From positions 1 to 44,505 of the forward strand of contig WQYR01000003.1 of assembly GCA_009781145.1 (NCBI GenBank): a stretch of 44,505 nucleotides of DNA, given 5' to 3'. Source of the stretch: Propionibacteriaceae bacterium (GTDB taxonomy: Bacteria > Actinomycetota > Actinomycetes > Propionibacteriales > Propionibacteriaceae). Positions within the stretch are counted from its first letter, which is position 1. The number at the start of each line of letters is the position of its first letter. This document shows, piece by piece, positions 30,491 through 33,955 of the stretch. The translations under genes were made by a program, and so were the position numbers. The notes under the pieces were generated by a model that ran no database searches, was not told where the DNA came from, and worked only from the letters and a program-made list of their open reading frames with translations.

Positions 30491-30958
30491 CTACCCCTCG
30501 ACCTGCAACTCGAAGGGGGCACCGTTCTTGAGTGTCAGCCCGACCGTGCAGCCCCGCGAGATGGCCCTGGTGATGGCGTCGGCCAGGCGTTTTCGGGCCT
30601 CCTCGTCGAAGCCCGCGGTGTTCAGCAGGACGCGCTCCTGAAAGCTCTCATACCGGTCTTCTTCAGCGTGGGGTGTGGCATCGACCACTACGGTGGCGGG
30701 AAAGTCCTCGCCCAGGTGGCGGGCCACCAGGTTGTCGAAGGTCATGCCGGCGCATCCCGCCAAAGCCAGTCTCAGCAGCTCGCCCGGTGTGAACGAGCCC
30801 GGCAGGTCGTCGTCCGAGTCGGCCATCAGGACGGTGGAGCCACGGTCATTATGCCCGAGGTAGGATCGTCGGCCGGTGCGCTCGACCCACCAGCGGGTGT
30901 CTTCCGGCGGGCTGATGCGATTGGCTGTGGGGTAGTAGGGCTTGTCGGTGTCGGTCAT
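30491..30958 (-). CDS. OsmC family protein
   Basis: FTPGELLRLALAGCAGMTFDNL; C-terminal ISRGCTVGLTLKNG; SD aaggaga. Confidence 0.82.
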   Translation of the reverse strand: MTDTDKPYYPTANRISPPEDTRWWVERTGRRSYLGHNDRGSTVLMADSDDDLPGSFTPGELLRLALAGCAGMTFDNLVARHLGEDFPATVVVDATPHAEEDRYESFQERVLLNTAGFDEEARKRLADAITRAISRGCTVGLTLKNGAPFELQVEG

Positions 30959-31054
30959 GGTGTCTCCTTGGACACCAGGCTACCGCTTCAGCGGCCATCG
31001 AATTAGGAAACAACTCTGTTGCGTAAATCTTTGGCATGCCGGTAAAGTCGAAGC

Positions 31055-32284
31055 GTGAAGAGTTTGGCCTGGAGCGAGCGGTTCGACCGGTGGTCGACGG
31101 GGCGCGTGTCGGGGCCAATCATCCTACTGGTGATCATGTGGGTGACGTTCCAGTTGACGACGCTGATCGCCCAACCTCTGCAGCTTTGGCTGGCGCATTT
31201 GTTTTCCGGGCCGGTCAGCGACGGCGCGACGACGCTGCTCAGGTGGATGCACCTTGCCAACACCTGGGTGCACGGGCTGGTGGTGAACGGGATCATCGCC
31301 GGGGTGGGCACACTACTGGCGTTTCTTCCGCTGATGATCATCATGTTCGTCCTGCTGTCCATCCTGGAGCACTCCGGCTACATGGCGCGGGCCGCCGTCA
31401 CCGCCAGCGGCCTGATGCGTCGCATCGGGCTACCGGGCGAAGCCTTTTTGCCGCTGATCGTCGGCTTCGGCTGCAATGTGCCGGCCGTGATCGCGACACA
31501 AGACCTGGCCGACCCCCGGCAGCGGCGGCTGACAGCCTTGCTGGTGCCATTCACATCATGTTCGGCCCGCCTGACGGTGTATATGCTTGTCAGCTCAGCA
31601 TTCTTCGGGCGTTGGGCGGGTACCGCGGTGTTCGCCATGTATGTTTTGTCGATCCTTTTGGTGGTCGGTGTCGGCTGGGCGTTGCGACGGGCCATGTGGC
31701 AGCGATGGCCCGGTCTGCCGATGATCCTCGACCTGCCCCCCGTCCACACCCCCGGGTGGCGAGCGGTGGTGAAGTCCGCCTGGGATCGGGTGGTGGACTT
31801 CCTGAAAACGGCTTCGGGCATCATTGTGGCCGTCGTCGTTGTGGTTTGGGTGTTGCAGGCCATACCGGTGGGTGCCGGAAGCTTTGGCGATGTGGCGCTG
31901 GACAACTCCTTGTTCGCCGCCGTGGCGCGGGTGTTCGCGCCGCTGTTCGCTTTTGCTGGTTTCGGCGCCTGGCATCTGGTGGCGCCGCTGGTGGCCGGCT
32001 TCGCGGCCAAGGAGGCTGTTGTCGCGTCTTTGGGCCAGACCTTTGGGGGCGGTGATCTGGCGGCGGCGCTTCACACTGCCTTCGGTGCGGCCTCCGGTGG
32101 GCACGCGCTGGCGGCGGCCGCCGCATTCCTGGTGTTCGTGCTCGTCTACACCCCGTGCGCCGCGACGGTATCGGCTCTGCGCCACCAGGTCGGGGGACGC
32201 TGGACGGCCTTCGGCGTGGCGCTTCAATTGATTCTGGCCTGGGTGTTGGCGGTAGTCGTCTTCCAGATCGGGCGCCTGCTATGA
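31055..32284 (+). CDS. FeoB-type Fe(II) transporter membrane domain lacking the N-terminal G domain
   Basis: LSILEHSGYMARAAVTASGLMRRIGLPGEAFLPLIVGFGCNVPAVIATQDL, PFTSCSARLTVYML, FAAKEAVVASLGQTF, YTPCAATVSALRHQVGG; in-frame TAA at 31043 fixes the 5' limit. Confidence 0.93.
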   Translation: MKSLAWSERFDRWSTGRVSGPIILLVIMWVTFQLTTLIAQPLQLWLAHLFSGPVSDGATTLLRWMHLANTWVHGLVVNGIIAGVGTLLAFLPLMIIMFVLLSILEHSGYMARAAVTASGLMRRIGLPGEAFLPLIVGFGCNVPAVIATQDLADPRQRRLTALLVPFTSCSARLTVYMLVSSAFFGRWAGTAVFAMYVLSILLVVGVGWALRRAMWQRWPGLPMILDLPPVHTPGWRAVVKSAWDRVVDFLKTASGIIVAVVVVVWVLQAIPVGAGSFGDVALDNSLFAAVARVFAPLFAFAGFGAWHLVAPLVAGFAAKEAVVASLGQTFGGGDLAAALHTAFGAASGGHALAAAAAFLVFVLVYTPCAATVSALRHQVGGRWTAFGVALQLILAWVLAVVVFQIGRLL

Positions 32285-32526
32285 CTCCCGACAAAGCCGT
32301 CCTAGATGCGGTCAACCGTGGTGCCATCACGTTGCCGCAAATCGCTGAGGCCACGGGCCTGTCGGCCCAAGAGGTGGCCACCTGCGTCAACGACCTCGTC
32401 CGCACCCGTCAACTGGCTGCAGCGTCGTCACTGGCGAACTGCGCGCTGGGGTGCAGCGGTTGCTCGCAGATGTGCGATCACCGGGGCAGCCCCACCGTCA
32501 ACAGCGACCGGCTAGCGCCGTTGTGA
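32281..32526 (+). CDS. FeoC-like winged-helix, Cys-rich small protein
   Basis: ATGA overlap with feoB; ITLPQIAEATGLSAQEVATCVNDLVRTRQL then C-x3-C-x2-C-x3-C. Confidence 0.75.
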   Translation: MTPDKAVLDAVNRGAITLPQIAEATGLSAQEVATCVNDLVRTRQLAAASSLANCALGCSGCSQMCDHRGSPTVNSDRLAPL

Positions 32527-33955
32527 TCGCCTGAACGTCGGTTGCCAGCGGCAGTTCGGAGAGCGCCGCCACCGGTTCACCCGAACTCAGCGACCGGCGG
32601 GCGGCACCGATTTGGCGCGCCAGTTCCGCATACTCAGTTTGACTTAGAACGTCATCGGTTGTGTTGGCCAGGCCGCGTGCGAGGGCATGGGAGTGGTCGA
32701 CTGCGTCACCCAGGCAGCGTGCGCGTCCTACGCCCAGTCGACGGGCGACGGCGGTGGTCGAGTCGAAGAACGCAAGCTCGTGATCGGCGGTGACGAGACG
32801 TTGGGCCGCGTCTGGGTCGGGCTTCCCGCGGGCGATCGCGGTGGTCAGGTCGCCGGCCGCGGCGAGCAATGTGGCGACTCGGACCTTGACCACGTCAGTG
32901 GTTTTGACCGGAAGGATGAACCAGGACGAGGCGACGCCGATGACGGTGCCGACCGCCACCCCGAGCAGTCGATGCAACAACAGGCCGCTGCCCGCCTCGC
33001 CGAAATAGCCATACATGAACGCGAGGGCCGCCGTGATACCCGCCGCCCAGTAGACGTAACCGAAGTCACGCACCGCGCTGACCAGGATCAGAATCGCGAA
33101 AATTACCACCAGCGCCCGATTATCGCCTGTGGAAAACAGCCCGGCGAGCAGCGTCGCGACCGCAGTGCCGGCCAGCGCCCCGACAGCCCGTTGGGCGCCC
33201 TTCCACACGACATCGCCGCGTCCCCGGTTCCCGCTGTGGACGATGAGAACCGTCAACACGGTCCAGACCAGATGGCTGGGGTCCAGCAACTCGGCGGCGG
33301 CGAAGGCGGCCGCTACGGCGACGCCAAGTTGGATCGACATGCGGGTACTCGGCGCCAGACTCCGAAGCCAGGCTGACCAGCCGGAGGATCCAGGTGCTTT
33401 CGGACGGCTCTTTGGAGGGCTGACGGGCGACGATGGCCCACTCATGGCGATGGCTCTGGCGGCCATTGCCCAAACTGCGGCGACACAGGCGGCGATTAGC
33501 ATCCAGCCCAGGAACGCGACTGTCGCCTCAACGGGAAGCGGATGCACGAGAACGGCGATAAATCCGAGTGCGGCCAGGGTGCCCGCGGCTTGTCCAAGCG
33601 GACCGAGCCGCCGCAGTGCCACTGTCGTCGCGACGCCGACAGCGAACGCCACTGCTCCCGCTATCCGCCAGTAATCGTTGTTCGCCAACCACATGCTGGC
33701 GCCGACAGCGGCCGCCGCCCCGAGAAGGTAGGCGACGATAGCGATGGGTACTTGCCGCCAGGTGACGCGTGCCAATCCGCGAGGCAGTGCGACCCCGAGC
33801 ATGACGGCGAACACGATCGCGTCCAGTGGCGGGTTCCACCAGGTGTGCAGTTGGGCCATCGACCAAAACGAAGGCAGCACAACCACCAAAGCCGCCAATC
33901 CCGCCCGAGCGCACCGCGCAGCGGCGGAACCTATCCGCCGGCTGGCATCGCTCAC
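32498..33955 (-). CDS. FUSC / aromatic acid exporter-like membrane protein
   Basis: Repeated hydrophobic segments; MSIQLGVAVAAAFAAAELLDPSHLVWTVLTVLIVHSGNRGRGDVVWKGAQRAVGALAGTAVATLL. Confidence 0.85.
   Translation of the reverse strand: MSDASRRIGSAAARCARAGLAALVVVLPSFWSMAQLHTWWNPPLDAIVFAVMLGVALPRGLARVTWRQVPIAIVAYLLGAAAAVGASMWLANNDYWRIAGAVAFAVGVATTVALRRLGPLGQAAGTLAALGFIAVLVHPLPVEATVAFLGWMLIAACVAAVWAMAARAIAMSGPSSPVSPPKSRPKAPGSSGWSAWLRSLAPSTRMSIQLGVAVAAAFAAAELLDPSHLVWTVLTVLIVHSGNRGRGDVVWKGAQRAVGALAGTAVATLLAGLFSTGDNRALVVIFAILILVSAVRDFGYVYWAAGITAALAFMYGYFGEAGSGLLLHRLLGVAVGTVIGVASSWFILPVKTTDVVKVRVATLLAAAGDLTTAIARGKPDPDAAQRLVTADHELAFFDSTTAVARRLGVGRARCLGDAVDHSHALARGLANTTDDVLSQTEYAELARQIGAARRSLSSGEPVAALSELPLATDVQAITTALAGRC

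Follow-up and report, generated by a model that had tools for sequence, protein, structure and literature searches.

Whether GTP drives FeoB as a pump or gates it as a channel has been debated for two decades. One analysis argues for a GTP-gated channel on the grounds that GTP is hydrolysed too slowly for transport to be driven by it (PMC4847171). The E. coli FeoB G-domain point mutants D123N and T37A abolish uptake, as cited in a passage of PMC8980893, and Helicobacter pylori needs FeoA (PMC10353542); canonical FeoB membrane domains therefore do not work alone. Here we describe a feoB gene in a 44,505-nucleotide stretch of Propionibacteriaceae DNA (the window) that encodes the membrane domain in isolation. 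From its sequence and genomic context, we consider that this gene probably specifies a FeoB rid of its GTPase: an Fe(II) permease that operates without GTPase activity, draws on the electrochemical gradient and is regulated chiefly at the level of transcription.

A membrane-domain FeoB in the window

The feoB locus of the window consists of the following features, given with their counterparts in a sister species, G002, where these differ:

31055..32284, plus strand: feoB-TM, 409 aa from a GTG start, comprising the FeoB membrane domain alone (Gate, FeoB_C, second Gate)
32281..32526, plus strand: feoC, a 246-bp ORF overlapping the feoB stop (ATGA, 32281) and encoding a winged-helix protein with four invariant cysteines
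31000..31029, unstranded: candidate inverted-repeat operator of 30 bp, GAATTAGGAAACA-actc-TGTTGCGTAAATC, common to the feoA promoters of full-length relatives
31019–31024, plus strand: possible −35 element TTGCGT, 18 nt upstream of the −10
31043..31048, plus strand: −10 element TAAAGT (TAGAGT in G002), 6 nt ahead of the GTG
30491..30958, minus strand: osmC-like gene, a divergent neighbour outside the system, missing at this place in G002

The 409-aa product matches the Pfam models Gate (E=7e-34) and FeoB_C (E=1e-11), and FeoB_N is absent. TIGR00437 aligns over model positions 242–592 of 594 with 301.6 bits, below the cut-off of 315.65 because the N-terminus is missing. Both profiles bear out the FeoB gate and transmembrane motifs that an earlier sequence-only reading had recognized in this coding sequence. 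Alignment to E. coli FeoB places the start of the window protein at the equivalent of about residue 265, directly ahead of the first transmembrane helix, and shows that the GDI helical domain is absent. Residues C140, C169 and C368 (E. coli C403, C432 and C677) are all kept, as are the GCNVPA motif and the second gate, and the membrane domain shares 53–60% identity with full-length FeoB of the same family. The sequence-only reading was right about the in-frame TAA at 31043, and its placement of osmC about 96 bp away on the opposite strand is confirmed (osmC start 30958, minus strand). Its statement that the window holds no FeoA or separate G-domain gene also holds, with PF02421 unmatched in the window contig and FeoA absent across the assembly. 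The TAAAGT element that it proposed as −10-like lies at 31043–31048 as described, with a spacing to the GTG of 6 nt and not the 7 nt given.

The arrangement of promoter and start codon is consistent with a leaderless feoB mRNA. A position weight matrix built from sites upstream of feoA in three relatives (G001, G003 and G005) ranks 31000–31029 best of 44,476 window positions at 30.7 bits, with the next at 15.5, an optimistic score in that the three training sites were chosen by eye for resemblance; in leave-one-out scans each training site ranks first in its own contig. Across the window genus, a 30-bp repeat of the form GAWTTWCGMAAC-N6-GTTKCGWAAWTC lies upstream of feoA or feoB and replaces the IdeR box (window 31000–31029; L104:10292; L099:1080; L100:1645; L102:1230). 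A classical IdeR box was sought upstream of window feoB and not found. The downstream gene, which the sequence-only reading had missed, is assigned as feoC by its family profile, which matches the FeoC structures 1xn7, 2k02, 4awx_B and 7wqu_B; the window protein on its own gives no score with PF09012. Between the window genome and G002, feoC has a dN/dS of 0.21. Both osmC (30491–30958) and a FUSC-family gene (32498–33955) flank feoB–feoC in the window and are absent from the otherwise collinear G002 contig.

G002 (contig WRFI01000029, isolate Lab288P4bin49) carries the same short feoB at 91% amino acid identity and with no G domain, and the two genes share an identical GTG start, the same −10/−35 placement and the same upstream repeat. 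We refer to the window genome (G000) and G002, fragmented metagenome assemblies that are 81% and 76% complete, as lineage A. The two feoB genes contain no stop or frameshift and have a dN/dS of 0.094 (dS 0.61), the second lowest among eight neighbourhood genes; with so low a ratio, and only one of the eight genes lower, the protein is therefore maintained by selection. Comparison of the two species thus shows a conserved feoB product on which purifying selection acts.

Origin and probable recurrence of the deletion

Short feoB frames also turned up in a second genus when 199 genomes of the family were scanned: G611 and G612 (lineage B) have complete 430-aa frames without a G domain, situated inside contigs of 194,610 and 90,153 bases. 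In G609, a full-length member of this genus, the gene order is birA, IdeR box, feoA, feoB, feoC, murI, and in G611 and G612 it is birA, IdeR box, short feoB, feoC, murI. The candidate IdeR boxes of G611 and G612 match at 16 and 17 of 19 positions, and box and start correspond between TTAGGTTAGCCTAACCTACATGAATCC ahead of G609 feoA and TTAGGTTAGCCTTACCTTTGTGAATCC ahead of the short feoB. Matching gene order, box and start therefore point to an in-place deletion that spanned feoA and the G and GDI domains. Comparison of these loci indicates that only about the first two to three codons of feoA escaped the deletion, which also took out the G domain and GDI, and that the membrane domain and feoC were spared. 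The lineage B membrane domain appears to be joined to the first codons of feoA, and the short feoB now to lie under the feoA operator and what looks like the feoA start codon. In the window genus, GTGAAG opens both G003 feoA and the window short feoB, and malQ and an RDD gene that adjoin feo in G004 and G005 lie within 5 kb in the window, in a changed arrangement.

All five other members of the window genus that we examined carry a FeoB G domain, continuous in frame with the membrane domain in G001, G004 and G006; G005 feoB is cut at a contig end and G003 feoB is broken by a frameshift. feoA is present in G001, G003, G004 and G005, and the G006 contig stops at the G domain. A tree of 70 membrane domains sets lineages A and B apart, each adjoining full-length members of its own genus, and the fewest changes on this tree amount to two losses. 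Placement of lineage A is weakly supported (89/45) because its branch is long, with a stem of 1.12 changes per site. A single origin of the G-less form is disfavoured by the tree and only marginally rejected by the AU test (p=0.041), and we conclude that the G-less architecture probably arose twice, separately. No other clear G-less FeoB appeared among the matches listed from 398 other genomes sampled in the phylum, 155 of them with FeoB, or among the matches listed from a Bacillota sample, in which two short frames sit close to the ends of their contigs. We found no published FeoB without a G domain in the open-access literature; reviews beyond it may refer to FeoB forms that are split or truncated.

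Several other irregular feoB genes were set aside. G031 and G620 were rejected as G-domain losses, their contigs ending inside or adjoining feoB. G614 was dropped from the argument, its contig starting 190 bp upstream with other frames resembling a frameshifted G-domain remnant; the contig edge just 5′ of its divergent feoB membrane domain (G614:C116, L097:1–260) possibly marks an intermediate stage of loss. In G003 (L100:611–1375 and 3–1055) and G477 (L105:3427–5651), a feoB frameshift between the G and membrane parts is probably a sequence error. In G027:C65 (L098:3735–6087), feoA is followed by a G-domain ORF and then a GDI plus membrane ORF with a TGA/ATG overlap of 8 nt, an arrangement that reflects either a naturally split gene or, in this 98% complete genome, a frameshift error. 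A 468-bp contig filed under Paenibacillus glycanilyticus (L093, NZ_JAMBNP010000044.1) carries an actinobacterial-type FeoB piece, 65% identical to the window protein, and that assembly is probably contaminated.

Absent partners and competing explanations

The sequence-only reading had proposed a genome search for a stand-alone G domain or FeoA, and the search, now run, returned neither. No FeoB-type G domain lies upstream of window feoB or elsewhere in the G000 and G002 assemblies, and FeoA (PF04023), present in relatives, was not found in either. PF02421 gives four weak matches in the window genome, namely ObgE, YchF, HflX and RsgA. Stand-alone FeoA is likewise missing from G611 (96% complete) and G612 (93% complete), where the sole matches are SH3 domains of IdeR/DtxR proteins, and the frame lengths and domain patterns of the PF02421 matches there fit ObgE, Era, HflX, YchF and Der, a collective assignment that does not classify each one. 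In the RsgA-like GTPase of the window genome (L004, G000:C8), the N-terminal half carries an insertion made up of four or five SAPLPPP repeats.

Lineage A proteins are changed at D106, D118, R119, R149, R216, Y230 and E378, positions conserved in full-length proteins and mostly so from E. coli to full-length relatives, and one tempting conjecture is that some of these residues contact the G domain in full-length FeoB. Loss of D106 in all five short proteins was discarded as a convergent mark, the overlap between lineages not being significant (hypergeometric P=0.12). An AlphaFold (AF2) model of the window protein has a pTM of 0.81. Its six best matches in the PDB are all CNT transporters (probability 0.94–1.00, TM-score 0.38–0.53), with no convincing relative by E-value. 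CNT transporters are elevator carriers that use no nucleotide. A Pfam scan of the window protein found no CNT family and reported FeoB_C instead.

These observations bear on several explanations of the short gene. The sequence-only reading had offered as one option a split system, in which a gene at another locus supplies a FeoB-type G protein, perhaps with FeoA, in trans. The incompleteness of G000 (81%) and G002 (76%) leaves room for such a gene, and the separate overlapping G and membrane ORFs of G027 suggest that separation as such may be tolerated. Nevertheless, neither partner is found in any of the four G-less assemblies, feoA and the G domain were lost together from the operon with the operator kept, and lineage A is without residues that are conserved where a G domain is present, making a partner in trans quite improbable. 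Recruitment of a housekeeping GTPase (ObgE, HflX, Der or Era) to do the job of the G domain is more improbable still, as the candidates present, which give weak PF02421 scores, are ordinary members of families with ribosomal roles and have no tie to the feo locus. We give similarly little credence to a decaying pseudogene or assembly artefact. Both lineage A assemblies are fragmented and the fragmented relative G003 has a frameshifted full-length feoB, but one junction recurs in two separate assemblies, the promoter is conserved, the second lineage has its genes inside long contigs, and the frame without stop or frameshift and the dN/dS of 0.094 rule out the pseudogene reading. The shared junction in G002, together with the second lineage, also rules out the assembly error over an in-frame upstream G domain that the sequence-only reading had named as its refuting condition.

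The strongest competitor, which we nonetheless consider unlikely, is that the membrane domain switched substrate after GTP control was lost, to another divalent metal or something else, and no longer imports iron. The long stem branch of lineage A and its changes in 5 of 84 otherwise invariant columns, including loop positions Y230 and R149 that are conserved as far as E. coli, would also fit a new substrate. Against a switch, the pore cysteines and gate motifs are intact, feoC is retained, lineage A keeps the ancestral feo operator, and lineage B has an IdeR box that abuts the start codon and keeps most of the loop residues. The other option of the sequence-only reading, a transporter with different energetics, is supported.

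Proposed mechanism and relation to known systems

In the gradient-driven permease that we favour, the membrane domain would still import Fe(II) without nucleotide, whether as a channel or as a facilitated permease of the elevator type. The inside-negative membrane potential and the iron sink within the cell would drive uptake in an anoxic gut with Fe(II) available; isolate names of related bins, and the source of such bins, higher termites (PMC7024585), point to a gut habitat. With the G domain gone, the simplest mechanism would be a permanently enabled permease with uptake limited by transcription, and control would have moved from GTP gating to the IdeR box in lineage B and the conserved inverted repeat in lineage A. 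FeoC may act directly on the membrane domain. 4awx is a solved complex of FeoC with the G domain, and retention of FeoC without a G domain raises the question of its binding partner. More broadly, we propose tentatively, and with slightly less than even confidence, that the FeoB membrane domain moves Fe(II) on its own and without nucleotide, as an elevator or channel on which FeoC acts directly, and that the GTPase is a removable regulator which gut Propionibacteriaceae have discarded with FeoA more than once. A FeoB kept by selection without G domain or FeoA suggests that FeoB can work without GTP. This natural protein of about 410 aa is a ready-made test protein for the debate between pump and gated channel, useful for reconstitution and also for structure, because we found no FeoB membrane structure in the PDB, where the membrane domain has no direct sequence match.

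Among known systems, the concentrative nucleoside transporters (vcCNT, CNTnw) resemble the window protein in modelled fold and in a related Gate domain name in Pfam, a resemblance of fold only, with a different substrate and about 13% identity. The split FeoB of G027, from the same family, likewise has its membrane domain in its own ORF, but keeps feoA and a G-domain ORF. FeoA–FeoB fusions of the Bacteroides type (PMC8980893) are also a rearranged Feo architecture, in which the membrane domain carries FeoA and the G domain as fusion partners, whereas in the window both are gone; that survey counts FeoA-containing architectures, so the G-less form could not be listed in it. Canonical FeoABC (TIGR00437; PF02421 with PF07670 and PF07664) has the G domain, GDI domain and FeoA that the window system lacks, and shares with it a homologous membrane domain, the cysteines, the gate motifs, an operon-linked FeoC and a putative iron-type operator that the window gene appears to have inherited from feoA.
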